A DNA stretch of 64,000 nucleotides. Source: Clostridia bacterium (GTDB lineage Bacteria; Bacillota; Clostridia; Oscillospirales; Acutalibacteraceae). This document shows, one piece after another, positions 51,018 through 61,307 of this stretch. A program made the translations under genes and the position numbers. The first letter of the stretch is position 1, and each line of letters starts with the position of its first letter. The notes beneath the pieces were generated by a model. The model saw only the letters and a program-made list of their open reading frames with translations, was not told the DNA's origin and searched no databases. The stretch covers positions 20,711 to 84,710 of the forward strand of contig JAFSCI010000029.1 of NCBI GenBank assembly GCA_017436815.1. The letters run 5' to 3'.

Positions 51018-51020
51018 CAA

Positions 51021-51058
51021 AACAAATATCCACCTGCTATGCGGGTGGATATTTGTTT
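51021..51058 (+). terminator. Terminator of the cotH-glycosyltransferase operon
   Basis: A 14-bp stem AACAAATATCCACC/GGTGGATATTTGTT with a 9-nt loop. Its sequence is strikingly like the terminator at 61269-61304 at the other end of the switch island. Confidence 0.92.
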
Positions 51059-51112: not shown

Positions 51113-51171
51113 GACGATTCACAATCATAATTTTCGGGTAAAATAAAAGAAAAAATTCGGAGGTAAATACG

Positions 51172-52017
51172 ATGAACAGAAAAAACGTAACGAAAAAACA
51201 AATTGAAATATTTGCCGCACATCTCAAAAGAGAGGAAAAGAGCGAAAATACTGTTGAAAAATATATCCGTGATGTAAGGGCATTTTTTTCCTATGTTGGC
51301 GAAACGGAGATAACAAAGGAAAGAGTGATTGCCTATAAGAGCAAATTGATTTCAGAAGGCTATGCGCCGCGCAGTATTAATTCAATGCTCGCGTCTATCA
51401 ATAGCCTGTTCTCATTTCTTGGATGGTCAGATTTGAAAGTGAAATCGATAAAACTTCAACGGCAGATCTATTGTTCTGAAGAAAAGGAGATGACAAAAGC
51501 TGAATATACGCGACTTGTAAATGCGGCTAAACAAAAAGGTAATGAGCGTTTAAATTTGTTAATACAAACAATATGTGGAACGGGCATTCGTGTTAGCGAA
51601 TTGCAATATATCACGGTTGAAGCGGTAAAGTGTGGTGAAGCGCTTGTTTCTCTCAAAGGAAAAATACGCTCGGTGTTTATTGTTAGAGAACTGCAAAAAA
51701 AATTGCTCTGCTATGCGGCAGAGCAAAAGATTACAACGGGAGCCATATTTATAACGCGGAACGGAAAGGTAATGAGCCGTACTAATATTTGGCGGGAAAT
51801 GAAAAGTTTGTGTGAACAGGCTAGAGTAAATCCAAGCAAGGTGTTCCCGCATAATCTGCGCCACTTATTTGCTCGCACTTTTTACGGCATTGAAAAGGAT
51901 ATAGTAAAACTTGCCGATATTCTTGGTCACAGCAGTATTAATACCACACGCATTTATATTATCACTACGGGTAACGAACATCGTAAGCGTATGGAAAATA
52001 TGCGGTTGATAATATAA
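51172..52017 (+). CDS. Tyrosine recombinase (DNA invertase of the adjacent switch)
   Basis: The 281-residue XerC/D-like recombinase has an N-terminal SAM-like core-binding domain (about 8-90) and a complete catalytic set: Arg140 (GTGIRVSEL), a beta-hairpin Lys (162 or 164, SLKGKIR), His227 and Arg230 (PHNLRHLFAR), His253 (LGHSS) and Tyr262 (TRIYI). The stop codon is only 27 bp from the left 19-bp inverted repeat of the invertible segment. Single-gene tyrosine recombinases beside inverted repeats commonly flip promoters of surface-protein genes. AT-rich codon use differs from upstream genes. Confidence 0.93.
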   Translation: MNRKNVTKKQIEIFAAHLKREEKSENTVEKYIRDVRAFFSYVGETEITKERVIAYKSKLISEGYAPRSINSMLASINSLFSFLGWSDLKVKSIKLQRQIYCSEEKEMTKAEYTRLVNAAKQKGNERLNLLIQTICGTGIRVSELQYITVEAVKCGEALVSLKGKIRSVFIVRELQKKLLCYAAEQKITTGAIFITRNGKVMSRTNIWREMKSLCEQARVNPSKVFPHNLRHLFARTFYGIEKDIVKLADILGHSSINTTRIYIITTGNEHRKRMENMRLII

Positions 52018-52044
52018 AAATAGTCACAAAAAATGGCGACGAGT

Positions 52045-52063
52045 ACATAATCTATATTATGTT
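52045..52063 (+). repeat. Left inverted repeat (IR-L) of the invertible segment
   Basis: The sequence ACATAATCTATATTATGTT is the exact reverse complement of 52304-52322. It is itself a near-palindrome: ACATAAT and ATTATGT arms around an asymmetric CTAT core, as expected for a tyrosine recombinase crossover site. Confidence 0.9.
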
Positions 52064-52096
52064 ATAACAGATTGGCAAAAACACTACGCCAAACCT

Positions 52097-52105
52097 ATCA
52101 TACCA
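52097..52105 (-). promoter_or_regulatory. Extended -10 promoter element facing the recombinase
   Basis: On the minus strand TGGTATGAT is a TGn-TATAAT-type extended -10 with one mismatch. No good -35 lies at 17 bp (A-rich), which extended -10 promoters tolerate. In the present orientation it points away from the surface genes; after inversion it would point into them with no terminator between. Confidence 0.5.
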
Positions 52106-52116
52106 GTTTAGTGTAT

Positions 52117-52158
52117 CACTTTTTTGTTAAAAACACAAGAGTTTTTGACAAAAAAGTG
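52117..52158. other. Palindrome with 18-bp arms inside the switch
   Basis: CACTTTTTTGTTAAAAAC and GTTTTTGACAAAAAAGTG are inverted copies with one mismatch around the loop ACAAGA. TGATTTTT follows, so it may terminate recombinase transcription; alternatively it is a protein-binding dyad, since the right arm contains TTGACA. Confidence 0.6.
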
Positions 52159-52172
52159 TGATTTTTAATAAT
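52145..52172 (+). promoter_or_regulatory. Plus-strand promoter candidate within the switch
   Basis: A perfect TTGACA (52145-52150) and AATAAT (52167-52172) are spaced by 16 bp. A start near 52180 would run straight into the terminator at 52194-52238, so in this orientation it would yield only a short RNA. Confidence 0.45.
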
Positions 52173-52193
52173 CATTCGAAATTTTCACAACAC

Positions 52194-52238
52194 AACTAAG
52201 CCTTTTTATAGTTAAAAAAAGAAAAGGCTTAGTTTTTT
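52194..52238 (+). terminator. Intrinsic terminator inside the invertible segment
   Basis: A perfect 13-bp stem AACTAAGCCTTTT/AAAAGGCTTAGTT with a 15-nt loop is followed by TTTT on the plus strand only. It stands between upstream transcription and the surface-protein genes in the present orientation. Confidence 0.85.
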
Positions 52239-52303
52239 GCACTCAATTAAGTCGATGTTGTTAAAATAATATTTACGGGCTATTTTTTTTTGCTATCGAG
52301 TAC

Positions 52304-52322
52304 AACATAATATAGATTATGT
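52304..52322 (-). repeat. Right inverted repeat (IR-R) of the invertible segment
   Basis: The sequence AACATAATATAGATTATGT is the exact reverse complement of IR-L; with the next base it is an AACATAAT/ATTATGTT palindrome around ATAG. CGAGTACA directly precedes both repeats (52040 and 52297) in the same orientation. Confidence 0.9.
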
Positions 52323-52371
52323 TGCTTCAAAATTAAAAGCAATGTAAAATTTGACCAGTGGAGGTTGTCAA

Positions 52372-55300
52372 ATGGCGAAAAAGATAATTGCGGTCGTGGT
52401 TACGGTGATATTGGTCATCGGAATATCTGTCGGAACCACATTGTTGGTGGATAAAAATGCAGTTCCGGTATCCACTACAATTGAAAACGGCTTGTCGGCA
52501 TATGAACTTGCTGTACAATACGGTTATGAAGGGACTGTACAAGAGTGGTTAAAATCTCTTGAGGGAAAATCTGCTTATCAGGTTGCCGTGGATAATGGCT
52601 ATTCGGGTACTGAATATGAGTGGATTGCTTCTCTAAAGGCAACTGCAGATAAAGCAGTAAGCATTAAAAATGCAGAATTTAATTCAAAAGGAGAATTGAT
52701 TTTAACTCTTTCCGATGACACAGTTTTGAATCTTGGTGTTGCTGTTGGTACAAATGGTGTTGATGGAAAAGATGGCACCAATGGTACGGATGGAGCCAAC
52801 GGCAAAGATGGCGTTGATGGTAAAGATGGTGCGGATGGCATCAGCATTACAACTGCAAATATCAACGCTGACGGACAACTGGTTATTGGTTTCTCCGATG
52901 GCAAAACCGTAAACCTTGATAAAGTTGTTGGCATGAACGGCAAAGACGGCGTAAGCGTTACTTCATCCAAAATTAACGCAAATGGAGAACTTGTTCTTAC
53001 ATATTCTAATGGTCAAGAAGCAAATCTTGGTGTTGTAATCGGCGCAAAAGGCGACAAAGGAGATAAAGGCGATGCAGGTGCCGATGGTAGAGATGGTACC
53101 GCAATCATCTCTACTGTTATCAATAACAATGGCGAACTTGTTATCACTTATTCCAACAACACAACAGAAAACCTTGGTGTTGTAGTTGGTCGTGATGGTG
53201 CTGATGGCAAGGATGGTCAGGACGGCACTAATGGTATTGACGGCAAAGATGGTGTTAGTGTTACCGGAGCCGAAATTACATCTAATGGCGAACTTGTTCT
53301 TACATATTCTAATAATCAGCGCTCTAACCTTGGAAAAGTTATTGGAGCTAATGGTAAAGATGGACAGAACGGTGCTGACGGCAAAGACGGTCAGGACGGC
53401 GCTAATGGAGTTGACGGTAAAACACCATACATTAAAAATGGCAATTGGTGGATCGGTGATGCTGATACCGGTGTCAAAGCCGAAGGTAAGGATGGCACCA
53501 ATGGTCAGGATGGACAAAACGGTCAAAATGGTCAAGATGGTACCGATGGCGATACACCTTATATTAAGAACGGTAACTGGTGGATTGGCGAAACTGATAC
53601 CGGTGTAAAAGCACAAGGTGTCGATGGCGCAAATGGTACAGATGGTAAAGATGGCGCTGACGGCAAAGACGGAGTTAGTGTAATTAAATCTGAAATTAAT
53701 GCCAAAGGTGAATTGGTTATTACATATTCTAATAATCAAGTAGACAATCTTGGCGTAGTTGTTGGTGTTAACGGTCAGAACGGTGCTGATGGTAAAGATG
53801 GCCAAAATGGTGTCGATGGTAAAGATGGCGTAGACGGTAAAGATGGAGTTGGTATTAAAAATATCAAAATTTCCAATACTGGTGAACTGCTTATAACGTT
53901 AACTAATGACTCTACCTTGAATCTTGGATGCATCAAAGGTGCCGACGGAAAAGATGGTGTCAATGGTAAAGACGGAGCCAACGGCAAGGATGGTATAAAC
54001 GGCACTAATGGTATTGATGGCAAGGATGGCGTAAGCGTTACCGGTGCATCTATAAATGCTGCAAACGAGTTAGTTCTTACATTCTCTAATAATACTGAGA
54101 AAAATCTTGGTGTAGTAGTTGGTGCCAACGGTGAGGATGGTAAAAACGGTGCTGACGGTAATGATGGCCGTGGCATTAAGGACACCGAAGTTAACGCTCT
54201 TGGCGAACTTGTTATCACCTATACTGATGATACAACCGATAACCTCGGTGTAATTGTAAGTGACAATGGTGGAGCCGGAACCAGTGCTAACGCTCCCCGT
54301 GTGCAGATAAATAGCACCACAAACGAGTGGGCAATTTCCACGGATGGTGGCAAGACTTGGGTTTCGACCGGAGTCAAGGCAACTGGTGAAAATGGTAAAG
54401 ATGGTGCCGACGGTGCTGATGGCGAAGACGGAACTGATGGTGTTAGCATAACAGATGCAACTATTAATGCTGATAATGAACTTGTTTTAACCTTCTCCGA
54501 TAACACACAAAAGACAGTAGGCGTAGTTGTTGGTACTGACGGCGAAGATGGTAAAGACGGTGTTGATGGATCTGATGGCCAGGACGGTAAAGATGGCGTC
54601 GATGGTGATACACCTTATATTAAAAATGGTAACTGGTGGATTAGTGATACTGACACAGGCGTAAAAGCCGAAGGCAAAGATGGTGCTAACGGTCAGAATG
54701 GCCAAAACGGTAAAGACGGTCAGAATGGCCAAGATGGTGTCGATGGCGACACACCTTATATTAAAAACGGCAACTGGTGGATCGGTGAAACTGACACCGG
54801 TGTAAAAGCAGAAGGTGCTGATGGTAAGGACGGCGTTGGTGTAAGTGGTGCTGAAATCGATGAAAATGACCATCTTATTATCAAACTTTCTAATAATACA
54901 ACAATTGATGTTGGCGTTGTAGTTGGTAAAGATGGCTCGAACGGAACTGACAGCACTAACGGCAAAGATGGAAAAGATGGCGTAGGAATCAAGGATGTTA
55001 CTGTGTCTGAAGAGGGCATTTTAACTGTCACGCTTGATAATGATACTGTTATAAACCTTGGTAATATCAAGGGTAAAGACGGTGTGGGTATTGCTAAAAC
55101 TGAAATAAATGCCGAAGGTAAGCTGGTTATTACCTATACTGATAATAATGTTGTTACTTTAGATAAGGTTGTCGGTGCTGACGGTGTTGGTATTAAATCA
55201 GTAGAACTTACCGATGATTATATGCTTAAATTAACCTTTACAGATGATGGCACTCAAACACTCGGCCCCATCAGAGGCGAAAAAGGTGCCGATGGTAAAG

Positions 55301-56298
55301 ATGGCGTAGGCATAAAGGAAGTAAGCGTTGACAATGATGGTTTTTTATATGTAACCTATACTAATAGTGATGATGCTCAAAAGATTGCTTATATAAAGGG
55401 CGATAAAGGTGACAAAGGCGATCCCGGTATAGATGGCCAAACACCGTATATTCTTAATGGTACTTGGTGGATTGGTGAAACAAACACCGGTATAAAAGCC
55501 GAAGGTAAAGACGGTATCAACGGAACAAACGGTACCAATGGTACCGACGGTAAAGATGGACAAAACGGTACTAATGGTAAAGATGGTGTGGGCATCCAAA
55601 ATGCTTATATTAATAGTGAATTGCATTTGATCATTGTTCTCACAAACGGAACAGAGATTGATGCAGGTAAAGTTGGATCTTCCGGAAGCTCTGTACCGTT
55701 AGAAAAATTTACGGTTATATTTAAAGACCATGATGGTACAGTTTTAAAGACAGAGGAAGTTGAGTCTGGCAAGGCTGCTACTGCTCCTGCAAATCCCTCG
55801 AGAGATGGCTATACATTCACAGGTTGGAATCAACCCTTTACCAATGTTCTTTCTGATATGGTTGTTGTAGCGCAATACCAAAAGATTGTAGGACCTACAA
55901 TAGTTATCAGTTCGGTTGCTGCTGATAAGGGTGAAAATATTGCTGTTACATTGACTATGGTAAATAATCCGGGCGTATTGGGAATGACTTTAGAGTTGGG
56001 ATATGATGAAAGTGCTCTAACACTTACAAGCATCGAAAAAGGCAATGCATTGAGTGAAATGACATTTACTAAACCCAAAAACTTAAAAAATGGTTGTCAA
56101 TTACCTTGGGATGCCGAAGAGGTATTACCCGAAGACGTAACAAATGGTACAATGCTCACATTGTATTTTGATGTTTCAGATAATGCAGCTTCAGGAAACT
56201 ATAACATCACACTAACTTATGATGATGGTGCTATTATTGACAATGATTTATCTCCAGTTAATATTAACGTTGTAAACGGCATTGTAACAATCAAATAA
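52372..56298 (+). CDS. Giant anchored stalk protein: Gly-X-X repeats ending in a cohesin domain
   Basis: ATG 52372 follows GGAGG by seven bases; an upstream in-frame TTG is ignored. The 1308 residues comprise an N-terminal membrane helix or uncleaved signal (4-25) and two SAYELAVxxGYxGT units (about 42-88). A long low-complexity region (about 127-1095) follows: Gly-X-X triplets rich in Asp, Lys and Asn alternate with strand units (GELVLTYSN...LGVVVG) and five TPYIKNGNWWIG-type segments. An InlB/Listeria-Bacteroides repeat (about 1110-1170) and a C-terminal cohesin-like domain (about 1174-1308, NNPGVLGMTLELGYD) end it. There is no LPxTG. It would project a cohesin at its tip. Expression is probably switched by the upstream inverton. 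Confidence 0.88.
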   Translation: MAKKIIAVVVTVILVIGISVGTTLLVDKNAVPVSTTIENGLSAYELAVQYGYEGTVQEWLKSLEGKSAYQVAVDNGYSGTEYEWIASLKATADKAVSIKNAEFNSKGELILTLSDDTVLNLGVAVGTNGVDGKDGTNGTDGANGKDGVDGKDGADGISITTANINADGQLVIGFSDGKTVNLDKVVGMNGKDGVSVTSSKINANGELVLTYSNGQEANLGVVIGAKGDKGDKGDAGADGRDGTAIISTVINNNGELVITYSNNTTENLGVVVGRDGADGKDGQDGTNGIDGKDGVSVTGAEITSNGELVLTYSNNQRSNLGKVIGANGKDGQNGADGKDGQDGANGVDGKTPYIKNGNWWIGDADTGVKAEGKDGTNGQDGQNGQNGQDGTDGDTPYIKNGNWWIGETDTGVKAQGVDGANGTDGKDGADGKDGVSVIKSEINAKGELVITYSNNQVDNLGVVVGVNGQNGADGKDGQNGVDGKDGVDGKDGVGIKNIKISNTGELLITLTNDSTLNLGCIKGADGKDGVNGKDGANGKDGINGTNGIDGKDGVSVTGASINAANELVLTFSNNTEKNLGVVVGANGEDGKNGADGNDGRGIKDTEVNALGELVITYTDDTTDNLGVIVSDNGGAGTSANAPRVQINSTTNEWAISTDGGKTWVSTGVKATGENGKDGADGADGEDGTDGVSITDATINADNELVLTFSDNTQKTVGVVVGTDGEDGKDGVDGSDGQDGKDGVDGDTPYIKNGNWWISDTDTGVKAEGKDGANGQNGQNGKDGQNGQDGVDGDTPYIKNGNWWIGETDTGVKAEGADGKDGVGVSGAEIDENDHLIIKLSNNTTIDVGVVVGKDGSNGTDSTNGKDGKDGVGIKDVTVSEEGILTVTLDNDTVINLGNIKGKDGVGIAKTEINAEGKLVITYTDNNVVTLDKVVGADGVGIKSVELTDDYMLKLTFTDDGTQTLGPIRGEKGADGKDGVGIKEVSVDNDGFLYVTYTNSDDAQKIAYIKGDKGDKGDPGIDGQTPYILNGTWWIGETNTGIKAEGKDGINGTNGTNGTDGKDGQNGTNGKDGVGIQNAYINSELHLIIVLTNGTEIDAGKVGSSGSSVPLEKFTVIFKDHDGTVLKTEEVESGKAATAPANPSRDGYTFTGWNQPFTNVLSDMVVVAQYQKIVGPTIVISSVAADKGENIAVTLTMVNNPGVLGMTLELGYDESALTLTSIEKGNALSEMTFTKPKNLKNGCQLPWDAEEVLPEDVTNGTMLTLYFDVSDNAASGNYNITLTYDDGAIIDNDLSPVNINVVNGIVTIK

Positions 56299-56311: not shown

Positions 56312-59300
56312 GTGAGATTCAAAAAAATAATATCTGTGCTTTTGGCTGTTGTCATGATGCTATCGGTCATACCTTTAAGCTTCTTAAATGTATTCGCTAA
56401 TAGTGATTCCAGCACAGAAATATCCGTAAAAAGCACATATGCTGCAAGTGGCTCAGAGATTAATGTAGACCTTATTATCGAAAACAATCCTGGAATATTA
56501 GGTATGACATTAAATCTTGAGTATGATGATAAATTTGCAACGCTTACTTCTATTGTAAGTGGTGAAGCATTGAGTTATATGACATTTACGCCGCCAAAGA
56601 ATCTTCAAAGCGGTTGTAATTTGCCTTGGGATGCACAAGATGTTAAAGAATCAGATATTAAAGATGGTGTTATTGCTACTTTAACATTTGATGTTTCTGA
56701 AGAGGCTATCCCAGGTTATGAAATTAATATAGATTTATCATATACTACGGGTGCTATTATTGATAAAGATATGAACCCTATAAAAGTTACGGTTAATTCT
56801 GGTGTAATTAAAATCTTAGATTATACACCAGGTGATCTTAACGAAGATGGAACAATAAATACAACAGATGTTGTGTTCTTGAGAAGATATATTGCAGGTG
56901 GCTACGGTGTAACCATTAATGAGGCTGCTGCTGATGTTAATGATGATGGTGTGCTTAACACAACTGACGTTGTTTACATCCGTAGATATGTAGCTGATGA
57001 TTGCGTTACTGACCCAAATGGTTACAACATAACATTAAAACCTTCAACCCCTAAATGTAAGCACTCTATGACAGCTATACCCGCTGTTGAAGCTACATGT
57101 ACCGCAAATGGTAACGATGCATATTGGTACTGTTCGCTTTGCGAGAAATATTTCAGTGATATTGATGGTAGAGAAGAAACAACTGTAGCTGATGAAGTTA
57201 TACCTGCCGGCCATTCTTTGACACACGTAGACGCTAAAGCAGCATCTTATACTCAGGAAGGCAATATTGAACACTGGTACTGCTCGGCTTGTGAAAAGTA
57301 TTTTGCCGATTCTTCTGCAAAGAGCGAACTGAAGAAAGAGGATGTATACATTCCTGTAATAGCAAGAGAAGAATCTACCGTTGTATATAACGTGTATGGT
57401 TCCGATCCTTATCTTGAAAGTGTAGGCGTTGATAACTCTAAAAACGAGACAACTTTCTATTCGGACGAGGGTCTGGTTCTTAATGATATTGTTGCTCCTG
57501 CAGGATATATCTTTAAAGGATGGACAACAGCAGCAGGAAAACCAATAACCGAAATTGAACCTCATGCAACCTCAAGACAGATTGTATTAAACGCAAACTG
57601 GGATAAGGTTACATATACAGTAACGTTTGATTCTCCGGATGTTCCTGTTGAAGCAGTTAAGTATACTGTAGATACCGGTGCAACATTTGAAAATGCTTCT
57701 TGGTATGGATATACTTTTGTTGGCTGGTCAAACGACGACGGCTTCCTTGTTAAGAATGTTAAGCCTGGCACAACAGGAAATATTACGTTACATGCAAACT
57801 GGACATCTAACAGAAATAAAGCAACAAGTTATTCGAATTACGGAGATCCTGTTGCAATTATTGAAGATGATGCAACCGGTCAGTTCTTGTTTGTTTATAA
57901 TATCGGTAAGATTGATAATGTTCCTTTAAGTCAAATTGAGTATATTGGAAACTCTCAAACCATCAACATTAATCAAAGCTATCAGGTTACCAATACCATT
58001 ACAAAAACCGAGGCTGAAACTGTTGCCGAAATGATATCTAAAGCAACAACAGAATCTTCTGGTTGGACATTATCAAAGGATTGGAATCAGCTTTATGAAG
58101 CTGGTTCTGAGCACGATGAAACACGTGGTAAAACTCAAGAAAGAACAGACAGTCAAGGAAATGTTACCGGTGGTAATTATTATGTAAGTAACAGCCAGGG
58201 TGGCGCGAGCTTTGTGAGCACAAATTCGGGTGGTTCTTCATCCAATTCTTCCAAGGTCACCAAAGATGCATCTGTTGGTATTCATAGCAATTACAAGACC
58301 TCCACAGAAACAGATGCCAGCGTAAGCTTGGGCGTTAAGAATGAGACAGAGCTTTCTGCAGGTGTAAAATACGGTCCTGCAAGTGCCGGCGTAAAGAACA
58401 CTACCACAGTTTCGGCTGAAACAAATGCTTCCCGTAACGACAAGGAAAGCTTTGAGTTGGACACACAAAAATCCTTCGCTATCGGTACGGTTGATGAAAG
58501 CCATTCTAACTCTTACTATGACGTTTCTGTTCAAAATTCAAGCAATTGGAACACAACAAGCGGCTACGAAAAGAGCTATCAGTCTAGCCAATCTACCGCT
58601 GTTTCAAACGCTATATCCGAACAAATATCTGAAAAAACTACGCTAAATATTTCTGAATCTGTTGGCGGAGAGGTTGCAAACTCGGCGCTTTCTACCGATA
58701 CATCGGGCAAAACTAATGAGTATTCTACAGCATTTGGCTACTCTGAAGGTACCGGCGAAGTAACCACAAAAGAGGTTACTTTCTCTTCTGATCGTCCTGG
58801 CTATTATCGTCTTGTAACCGCAGGTACGGCACATGTGTTTGGTGTTGTCGGCTATGATGTGGCTACCGATTCATATTTTACCTATACTTATTCTGTACTG
58901 GACAACGAAAGACATACTTACCTTGACTACTCTAAGGCCGATCCTAACTTCAAGGATTGTCAAAATGCCGTTGTGCCTTTTGAGGTTCCTTATTATCCTA
59001 ATGAATACATTATGGCAGTCACAGGTAAGAGCGAAGGATTGCAGGTTAACTTGGATGGTTATATCACTGGATATACAGGTACAGATTCAACTGTTGTTAT
59101 TCCTCAGTATTGGCAGTCCGATAACGGTGATGGCACGTATAGCGCCATCAAGATTCGAGGAATTGCAGCAAATTACGAAGATAATAACGGCGAGTTGGTA
59201 ACTGTATTTGGTGGTAATACCAATATCGAAAAGGTTATACTTCCTAAATATGTTACCGAAATTCCTGAATCAGCTTTTGAAGGATGCACATCGTTAGAAA

Positions 59301-61261
59301 CAATATTTGCTTCAGGAGTAACTAAGATTGGTGCAAATGCATTTAAGGACTGTAGCTCATTAGCAACATTTACAATAGATGAATATGTGACATATCTGGG
59401 TGATGGAGCTTTTGAGGGTGTTAGTAAGCTTGTGGTTATGGCAGCAAATCCGAATGTGGTTGATGCTGTAATAAATAGTGGCGCTAATGACATTACACTC
59501 AATCTTTCTAAATTGAGCGGTTCTATAGATGACAAGGTTATTAAAGTATCGGGAGAAACAGGATGTTTCACATTGATTAGTAACGGATCGGTTTATAAGA
59601 ATCTGCAAATTGAGTCAAAGGCAGACGAAACGTTCCTAAGTAACTTCTCGTTGGTTGAAAACAAAGATACTCCTTTAAAGCTTGAATCTGAAAAGGTTAC
59701 GCTCAACCGTGTAACTGTACAGGATGCGCCTGGATTTGCTTTGATTCTGCCGTGTGAAAACACTGAAGTTAAGCTTTATGGTAATAACAATTTGTCTTCA
59801 AAGGGCGACAATGCAGTTTTGTGCAAGAATGTCCATCTTTCTCTTCAAAACGCTGCTATTTCAAGTAAGTTAATCGTAGACGGAGATTTGCTTTGTTGCG
59901 GAGCAATAGACGGAACGTCATTGTTGAATATCAGCGATGGTTCTGTAATTTCAATTTCTACTGAAGAATTTGAACAATATATGTCTTCGATTATTATGAC
60001 ATTCGATTCTAATGGTGGTTCAGAGATTACAACAGAGATTCGTGCATATTACGGTCAATCTTACGGCGAGTTACCGGTTCCTACACGCGCTAATCACGGA
60101 TTTGTAGGCTGGTTCACCGAAGCCGAAGGCGGTACTCAAATTACAGCTGATAGCGTTGTTTTAAATCACGTGAATCAAGTATTATATGCTCATTGGGCAC
60201 CAAATCAGTTTACGCTGACTTACAATGCTAACGGTGGTAGTTGTTCAACTGCTACTAAATCTTTGACGTTTGGCGATAGCTACGGCGATCTCCCGATTCC
60301 TACCAGAACACATTATACATTTGATGGTTGGTACACCGATGCAGTTGGCGGAACAAAGGTTTCTGCAGAGACAACACCAAGTGTGGCTGAAAATGTAACT
60401 ATTTATGCTCATTGGACGCTTGTACCTTACACTGCTTCGTGGAGCAATGGCACTGGATATACTATTTCGGTAAGCAGAACTTCTTCGCCAAATGCGAATG
60501 CAACAATAGGTACCTTAAGTAGTGGCGCAACAATATATTACGGCGATGTTTTGTCGGTTACTTATACTGCTTCTACGGGTTACTCTTTGTCAAATAAGGG
60601 TATTACATCTATAACTGTAATTAGCAATTTAACATCTTCGGATATTTATGCTACAACATCATTAAATAGCTATACCTATAATATAGTTTATAGATCAAGT
60701 AACGGAACGGCTTTGGGTAGCGCTACAGCAACTTATAAGTATGGAACAACAAATACAATTGTACCTAAATCATTCTCAGGATACACTTCACCTTCTTCAC
60801 AAAGTGTAAAATGGGATTCAACAAGCGCCAAGACAATAACGTTTACTTATGTGCCGGCATCGGTGTCAACATCTCAAAATGTTAGCAGTGGCACATGGTG
60901 GTCGAATAACGGAACTGCCGCAATTACGTATTCAGTAAAAATTGAATACAGAAATAGAACGGCAACAAGTGTTCAGGTGCGAGTTACATGGACAAATACG
61001 ATTAGAGCAAAATATTATTATGGATATTCTCAGGCATTTAATGCCTCAATTGGTGGTGTGTCTACTGGCAATTGCACTATTGCCACTTCGAGTTTGTGGA
61101 GTTCGGCCACAAATAGCGCGAGATCGACTTCTGCTACGACCGGTTGGGTTACTGTTCCTGTGAAAACGACTAGTGCGACAACAATTTCAGTCGATGGTCA
61201 TTACTGGGATGCATTGAGAAACAATTACTGGTATGGCTCTTTTGTAATTCCTGCATATTAA
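56312..61261 (+). CDS. Giant secreted protein with cohesin, dockerin, BspA and InlB-type repeats
   Basis: GTG 56312 follows GGAGG by seven bases, 13 bp after the stalk gene. The 1649 residues carry: a signal peptide (1-30); a cohesin-like domain (about 34-170) closely paralogous to that of the stalk; a type-I-like dockerin (about 174-235) with two DxNxDG calcium loops and TTDVV helices; cysteine-pair repeats (about 245-352); and Listeria-Bacteroides repeats (about 357-505). A Ser/Thr-rich beta region (about 545-900), BspA-type leucine-rich repeats (about 905-1095), two more Listeria-Bacteroides repeats (about 1227-1370) and a beta-rich C-terminus follow. It probably docks on the stalk or polymerises. 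No catalytic domain was recognised. Confidence 0.87.
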   Translation: MRFKKIISVLLAVVMMLSVIPLSFLNVFANSDSSTEISVKSTYAASGSEINVDLIIENNPGILGMTLNLEYDDKFATLTSIVSGEALSYMTFTPPKNLQSGCNLPWDAQDVKESDIKDGVIATLTFDVSEEAIPGYEINIDLSYTTGAIIDKDMNPIKVTVNSGVIKILDYTPGDLNEDGTINTTDVVFLRRYIAGGYGVTINEAAADVNDDGVLNTTDVVYIRRYVADDCVTDPNGYNITLKPSTPKCKHSMTAIPAVEATCTANGNDAYWYCSLCEKYFSDIDGREETTVADEVIPAGHSLTHVDAKAASYTQEGNIEHWYCSACEKYFADSSAKSELKKEDVYIPVIAREESTVVYNVYGSDPYLESVGVDNSKNETTFYSDEGLVLNDIVAPAGYIFKGWTTAAGKPITEIEPHATSRQIVLNANWDKVTYTVTFDSPDVPVEAVKYTVDTGATFENASWYGYTFVGWSNDDGFLVKNVKPGTTGNITLHANWTSNRNKATSYSNYGDPVAIIEDDATGQFLFVYNIGKIDNVPLSQIEYIGNSQTININQSYQVTNTITKTEAETVAEMISKATTESSGWTLSKDWNQLYEAGSEHDETRGKTQERTDSQGNVTGGNYYVSNSQGGASFVSTNSGGSSSNSSKVTKDASVGIHSNYKTSTETDASVSLGVKNETELSAGVKYGPASAGVKNTTTVSAETNASRNDKESFELDTQKSFAIGTVDESHSNSYYDVSVQNSSNWNTTSGYEKSYQSSQSTAVSNAISEQISEKTTLNISESVGGEVANSALSTDTSGKTNEYSTAFGYSEGTGEVTTKEVTFSSDRPGYYRLVTAGTAHVFGVVGYDVATDSYFTYTYSVLDNERHTYLDYSKADPNFKDCQNAVVPFEVPYYPNEYIMAVTGKSEGLQVNLDGYITGYTGTDSTVVIPQYWQSDNGDGTYSAIKIRGIAANYEDNNGELVTVFGGNTNIEKVILPKYVTEIPESAFEGCTSLETIFASGVTKIGANAFKDCSSLATFTIDEYVTYLGDGAFEGVSKLVVMAANPNVVDAVINSGANDITLNLSKLSGSIDDKVIKVSGETGCFTLISNGSVYKNLQIESKADETFLSNFSLVENKDTPLKLESEKVTLNRVTVQDAPGFALILPCENTEVKLYGNNNLSSKGDNAVLCKNVHLSLQNAAISSKLIVDGDLLCCGAIDGTSLLNISDGSVISISTEEFEQYMSSIIMTFDSNGGSEITTEIRAYYGQSYGELPVPTRANHGFVGWFTEAEGGTQITADSVVLNHVNQVLYAHWAPNQFTLTYNANGGSCSTATKSLTFGDSYGDLPIPTRTHYTFDGWYTDAVGGTKVSAETTPSVAENVTIYAHWTLVPYTASWSNGTGYTISVSRTSSPNANATIGTLSSGATIYYGDVLSVTYTASTGYSLSNKGITSITVISNLTSSDIYATTSLNSYTYNIVYRSSNGTALGSATATYKYGTTNTIVPKSFSGYTSPSSQSVKWDSTSAKTITFTYVPASVSTSQNVSSGTWWSNNGTAAITYSVKIEYRNRTATSVQVRVTWTNTIRAKYYYGYSQAFNASIGGVSTGNCTIATSSLWSSATNSARSTSATTGWVTVPVKTTSATTISVDGHYWDALRNNYWYGSFVIPAY

Positions 61262-61268
61262 AATCAAA

Positions 61269-61304
61269 AACAAATACCACCCACAATAGTGGGTGGTATT
61301 TGTT
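61269..61304. terminator. Terminator of the surface-protein operon
   Basis: A perfect 16-bp stem AACAAATACCACCCAC/GTGGGTGGTATTTGTT with a 4-nt loop lies between two convergent genes; T-rich sequence follows on both strands. Confidence 0.93.
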
Positions 61305-61307
61305 TAG

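Follow-up and report, generated by a model that had tools for sequence, protein, structure and literature searches.

A 64-kb stretch of Clostridia DNA (hereafter the window) contains a locus that is very probably a self-contained promoter-inversion switch, or inverton, in which an Xer-like recombinase would invert a short promoter-bearing segment and two large downstream genes would both be ON after inversion. The segment lies inverted between related genomes, and the centres of its two recombination sites match. Promoter inversion beside a tyrosine recombinase is a kind of switch that is known already. For the present locus we infer that the neighbouring recombinase is the actor, that transcription is turned ON and OFF, that both genes are co-transcribed and that flipping is ongoing. 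Such a phase switch of uncultured gut Clostridia can be recognised by sequence alone, from near-constant arms, a shared, locus-specific 6-bp centre and a narrow spacing, and the state of the switch can be proposed from an assembly.

Inverted sites and inversion between genomes

The features that define the locus are as follows.

51172..52017, plus strand: tyrosine recombinase gene P0001, 281 aa, Xer-like, without internal stop
52045..52063, plus strand: left recombination site, ACATAA-TCTATA-TTATGTT, exact 19-bp repeat
52064..52303, no strand: invertible segment, exactly inverted in relative L009
52304..52322, minus strand: right recombination site, exact 19-bp repeat
52372..56298, plus strand: 1308-aa protein with collagen-like repeats, hydrophobic over an N-terminal stretch and with a cohesin domain at the C-terminus
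56312..61261, plus strand: 1649-aa protein with an N-terminal cohesin, a dockerin I, Listeria-Bacteroides repeats and LRR_5, starting 13 bp past the preceding stop codon

The preliminary description of this DNA had reported a complete recombinase gene 27 bp before a 19-bp repeat, and an exact reverse-complement copy of that repeat 49 bp before an ATG. Both statements were confirmed: the open reading frame at 51172-52017 encodes 281 aa and its stop codon is separated from the left repeat by 27 bp, while each of the two repeats (52045-52063 and 52304-52322) is the exact reverse complement of the other along its 19 bp and the right one lies 49 bp before the ATG at 52372. The window therefore holds inverted repeats around a short segment, and the switch spans 278 bp with both sites included. 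When up to three mismatches were allowed, the site was found within the 64-kb window at the two repeat positions only (shuffle expectation 0.02), and its 18-bp form had three further matches, with three mismatches each, in the 1.33-Mb, 69% complete assembly of the window. An Rfam scan of the window gave no match, and a search by genus returned nothing beyond the source genome itself.

A goat colon genome (L009, JAFQQN010000005.1) carries the same recombinase and the same first downstream gene as the window. At the DNA level the recombinase regions are 80.5% identical across 961 bp and the first surface genes 89.5% across 3.66 kb, with both pairs running the same way, and the first downstream proteins are 84.8% identical over 1305 residues. 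Between these two regions, window positions 52045-52322, from the outer edge of one site to that of the other, align to the opposite strand of L009 with 78.8% identity over 278 bp. Alignment of the 242 bp between the 18-bp sites with the reverse complement of L009 was gapless, with 187/242 identical positions and a score of 319.0, compared to 143/216 and a score of 134.5 for the forward alignment (shuffled mean 92.7, maximum 120.5).

Further relatives were collected by a scan of genome contigs, from which the best 80 of 243 were retained; the recombinases of these best 80 are 67-87% identical, and most are labelled as Clostridia or groups within it. Viral contigs, considered as a place where one element might occur in both orientations, yielded only six relatives. 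Sites were sought from 60 bp before to 1.1 kb after the end of the recombinase match with at most two arm mismatches, and two sites were found in 67/87 loci (86 fetched relatives plus the window), usually about 30 bp past the recombinase and about 240 bp apart. The orientation of the segment could be placed by profile in 59 of these 67 loci, the other eight being without a call. Fifty segments lie as in the window and nine are flipped, one of which (L082) was called on a weak score of 15.9 bits. Another flipped locus, L050, is inverted relative to L052; these two carry a cargo other than that of the window, a member of the SPFH cluster described below, and their downstream proteins are 86% identical. 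Both orientations thus exist between related genomes, and the refuting case named in the preliminary description, a single orientation in all relatives, did not arise: L009 is inverted exactly between the sites, 9/59 segments are flipped, and L050 and L052 differ from each other.

Comparison with the relatives also demonstrated that the variable centre between the nearly constant arms consists of six bases, TCTATA in the window. Among the 67 two-site loci there are 32 kinds of 6-bp centre, and in 66 of them the centre is the same in both repeats in inverted register; the sole exception, with unmatched centres, is the flipped locus L050. For the inner 4 bp, 66/67 loci match inverted and none direct, compared to an average of 4.2 and at most 16 in 2000 permutations. 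An earlier proposal of an asymmetric 4-bp core suited to inversion accordingly stands as to the inverted register and falls as to the length of the core. Tyrosine recombinases need an identical overlap sequence, and matching centres are therefore the signature expected of working inversion sites.

The same agreement was obtained from a search with the arms only. In 394 genomes of the order this pattern occurred at 23 places in 19 genomes, some of which are also among the scanned relatives, and the centres matched in 23/23 (the table being read by eye). A like pattern in 50 genomes known to hold the family gave 40 places with matching centres in 39; the remaining place is in the L051 genome, where there are three sites and the outer two match. 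Three recombination sites instead of two are likewise present at L063, with a tandem copy of the left site, and at L101, while the extra site of L051 has another centre. Matched site pairs at L098 and L106, without a recognisable family recombinase in the fetched stretch, are possible orphan switches. We also considered whether locus-specific centres insulate the cassettes of one genome from each other. Of 16 pairs from ten genomes that carry at least two sites or cassettes, 15 differ (the equal pair is in G075), but about 0.7 equal pairs are expected by chance, and the idea was set aside. These pairs were compared by eye, the chance figure is a hand sum from the centre counts, and G409 was treated as G050 because of agreeing coordinates.

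Promoter, terminators and proposed states

Three further features of the window bear on how the switch might act.

52110..52138, minus strand: proposed invertible promoter, -35 TTGTGT (52138-52133), 17 nt, -10 TACACT (52115-52110), leftward, away from the surface gene
52013..52040, minus strand: leftward terminator-like hairpin and T run in the region from the left repeat to the recombinase stop, -5.2 kcal/mol, z -3.59
52194..52238, plus strand: mid-segment hairpin AACTAAGCCTTTT...AAAAGGCTTAGTT and T run, -16.1 kcal/mol, z -4.34, terminator-like towards the surface gene

The leftward promoter of the window has only 7/12 consensus letters, at the place where the relatives carry their promoter. 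On the strand that would be directed at the gene once the segment had flipped, a promoter with at least 9/12 consensus letters is found at the proposed segment end in 48/59 loci and at the other end in 2/59, with 14.1 from shuffled sequences. At a looser threshold of 8/12 the contrast is smaller (proposed end 55/59, other end 17/59, shuffled 31.8). The position of the promoter was analysed in the 52 of 59 segments no longer than 270 bp, a set that also served for part of the work on the shared element, and in 42/52 it is centred in one same tenth of the segment (shuffled 4.1). The opposite strand has no strong promoter peak in the 52 loci, and its gene-proximal half has fewer hits than shuffled sequence, 3 versus about 18. 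Results of this positional analysis support a promoter within the invertible segment and, together with the exact inversion in L009, bear out the earlier reading of the locus as an inverton.

A leftward terminator lies between the recombinase stop and the left site in 52 of the 63 loci (out of 67) whose gap is long enough, compared to three rightward terminators and 8.7 leftward ones in shuffled sequence; 11/63 loci are without one by the test applied, and that of the window is weak, weaker than in many relatives. An antisense RNA against the recombinase, made from the OFF-facing promoter, was entertained and rejected because this terminator intervenes in the 52 loci. The mid-segment hairpin is terminator-like in the direction of the window in 34/59 segments and in the other direction in 28/59 (shuffled 11.5), and may therefore work both ways. 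An AT-rich long hairpin of 18 pairs (4 G-C) at 52117-52158 overlaps the proposed promoter and the shared element described below.

In the mechanism that we propose, the Xer-like tyrosine recombinase would recombine the two dif-like sites, CATAA-N6-TTATG, and, because their 6-bp centres match in inverted register only, the 240-bp segment between them would flip. The segment would hold a single outward-facing promoter close to one of its ends, with a hairpin mid-way. In the OFF state, most likely that of the window judging from the promoter positions, the promoter would face left and its transcription would run into the terminator that separates the left site from the recombinase gene, while transcripts reading through from that gene towards the surface genes would end at the mid-segment hairpin. 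In the ON state, as which the orientation of L009 may be read, the promoter would face the collagen/cohesin gene and then the cohesin/dockerin gene.

It is unlikely, by comparison, that the segment inverts but the window is ON through a rightward promoter. The candidate at 52145-52172 (11/12) comes closer to the sigma-70 consensus than any other in the segment, and the rightward matches at 52184-52212 and 52072-52101 (10/12 each) are also stronger than the leftward promoter. Against this reading, the hairpin and T run at 52194-52238 stand between 52145-52172 and the gene, all three rightward matches precede or overlap that hairpin, and it is the rightward strand that is without a strong peak and depleted on its gene side in the 52 loci, the clustered promoters being on the opposite strand.

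The recombinase and its role

The assignment of P0001 to the tyrosine recombinase superfamily follows from its match to Pfam Phage_integrase (80.5 bits, cut-off 27.1). Its catalytic residues are R140, K164, H227, R230, H253 and Y262, and each residue of this R-K-H-R-H-Y set is present in 79/79 aligned sequences, the window included. Eight of the 87 sequences had been excluded from that alignment beforehand: L049, L068, L084 and L086, each with a stop within the translated match, and further L088, L089, L091 and L092. P0001 remained below the curated NCBIfam cut-offs for XerD (118.4 versus 329.6 bits), XerC (112.2 versus 335.15 bits) and XerA (141.8 versus 220 bits); it is Xer-like, yet below the Xer cut-offs. 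The 1.33-Mb, 69% complete assembly holds one copy of the recombinase. In two relatives, L049 and L086, the recombinase match has a length not divisible by three and an internal stop; these broken reading frames are possible frameshifts, and the switches concerned are perhaps locked.

Proximity and co-occurrence indicate that P0001 probably flips the segment. That the host XerC/XerD does so instead, the site being dif-like, we regard as very unlikely. The arms and the 6-bp centre of the site have what we take to be a sequence resemblance to dif, and this speaks for the host enzymes. The co-occurrence data argue against them: for 21 of the 23 places found by the arms-only pattern the surrounding stretch was fetched, and 17 of these 21, the window among them, have a family recombinase in that stretch, two of them only a partial one. 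The four places without it comprise two (L112 and L113) where the contig breaks off next to the site and two (L098 and L106) that are unexplained. A central hexanucleotide is described in PMC3599477.

Likewise very unlikely is the notion that the two sites are mobile-element ends or attachment sites and the inversion incidental, for which one may cite the unlike surroundings of the module (blastn homology to L009 begins 48 bp before the recombinase start and the preceding 3.1 kb is without match) and the scatter of its relatives over many Clostridia among the best 80 of 243, but the sites enclose only about 240 bp, with neither recombinase nor cargo, and this together with the inverted-register centres favours inversion over excision.

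Shared element, downstream genes and known systems

Two copies of a short element were located in the window.

51124..51144, plus strand, upstream of the recombinase: element ATCATAATTTT (51124-51134), which differs from the family element ATCATACTTTT by one mismatch, followed by -10-like TAAAAT (51139-51144)
52152..52162, minus strand: ATCACACTTTT, a copy of the shared element that has diverged, lying upstream of the proposed invertible promoter

With at most one mismatch, ATCATACTTTT occurs upstream of the recombinase in 40/85 regions (shuffled 0.3; other strand 0/85) and on the ON strand of the segment in 29/59 (shuffled 0.7; other strand 2/59). With at most two mismatches, 42 upstream copies begin exactly 15 bp before a -10-like hexamer, while the segment copies lie 47-48 bp (22 copies) or 62 bp (8 copies) before one. 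A longer form that includes the -10 box has 23 occurrences in 21/50 genomes; 22 of these precede an ORF beginning like the family recombinase (read by eye), and at the 23rd, in L159, no ORF was found and the position fits the L010 recombinase. Co-variation of the two copies within a locus, examined in 54 segments, is modest: 25/54 own pairs score at least 12, compared to 23% when pairs are sampled across loci, 9% after shuffling and 6/54 on the opposite strand. Common descent could account for the upstream copies and less easily for the segment copy. From the shared element we infer that one factor may regulate both the recombinase promoter and the flipping promoter. A second box, resembling TTCGACAAT with at most one mismatch, is present in 27/59 segments on one strand (shuffled 2.4) and in 4/59 on the other; it may be a Spo0A-like box.

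These observations leave room for a broader proposal, which we advance tentatively and at somewhat less than even chance: the cassettes could form a widespread portable switch family, a recombinase with an insulated invertible promoter placed before unrelated genes, in which one factor acts through the common 11-bp element. Because the element is common to both promoters, a common factor of this kind would co-regulate the switching rate and the output of the ON state. As design features, the terminator facing the parked promoter and the shared element are specific enough to be tested. Neither was found described in a narrow literature search, barely aimed at the terminator and not at the element.

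Both large proteins of the window are probably surface proteins. Cohesins were located at 55900-56295, the end of the first gene, and within 56312-57100, the start of the second, which also encodes the dockerin. The 1308-aa and 1649-aa proteins may bind one another by docking, as in a small scaffold of the cellulosome type, and a docked surface complex from both genes, plausible on their domain content, is what the switch of the window would control. A first downstream ORF was assigned in 66/67 loci, some of them doubtful because they are far from the site or very short (e.g. L064, L070 and L075), and 40 of the 66 were scanned against Pfam. Linkage by blastp gave a cluster of 14 that includes the window, mostly large repeat proteins with two short ones, and a second cluster with 12 members; the one scanned among these is the Band_7/zinc-ribbon protein of L015. 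This SPFH cluster (L015 having SPFH Band_7_1 and a zinc ribbon) comprises L015, L020, L025, L028, L033, L046, L050, L051, L052, L058, L073 and the open fragment L037. The remaining ORFs form small clusters or single cases, among them the following.

L022: SNF2/PLD helicase
L013: HNH
L049: PD-(D/E)XK
L016: TIR
L066: methyltransferase, a weak match below cut-off
L056: sugar transferase, 323 bp from the site
L026 and L076: histidine kinases
L060: NRPS

The cassette family is not tied to surface proteins. Its position before quite different genes, restriction-like ones included, suggests that population bet-hedging is perhaps broader than surface variation.

The closest counterpart among known systems is inverton group 139, associated with invertase group 35, for which 33 invertons are reported, 32 of them from class Clostridia, with a tyrosine-type recombinase near nearly all and flipping seen in reads (PMC11892184, Microbiome 2025). 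This group may be the same family as the window cassette. The window has an adjacent recombinase, the record titles of its relatives suggest a host of class Clostridia, and its 278-bp switch is somewhat longer than the examples from Clostridium sp. D5 (257 bp) and Intestinimonas butyriciproducens (255 bp). Unlike group 139 as described in the available portion of PMC11892184, where neither is mentioned, the window family has a leftward terminator and a shared element.

The fimS switch of E. coli, with FimB and FimE, similarly has a promoter between two inverted repeats and recombinase genes nearby, but it employs two recombinases and a phase-variable, Rho-dependent fimE terminator, whereas the terminator-like hairpin of the window is fixed outside the segment (PMC2784873). 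In C. difficile, the cwpV switch is inverted by RecV, a tyrosine recombinase of the XerC/XerD family, at 21-bp imperfect inverted repeats that lie 195 bp apart and 57 bp before the start of a surface protein, a layout like that of the window; unlike in the window, the cwpV promoter is outside the segment, switching there is proposed to work through a terminator in the OFF transcript, and recV is away from cwpV (PMC2784873). In the mba system of Ureaplasma an XerC-type recombinase also inverts DNA at short repeats and varies a surface antigen, but the sites are different and the available portion of the source does not present the recombinase as belonging to a portable cassette (PMC3599477).

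As a minor observation on the window, similar hairpins AAACAAATA...TATTTGTTTA at 51020-51058 and about 61268-61305 flank the module of recombinase, switch and two genes.
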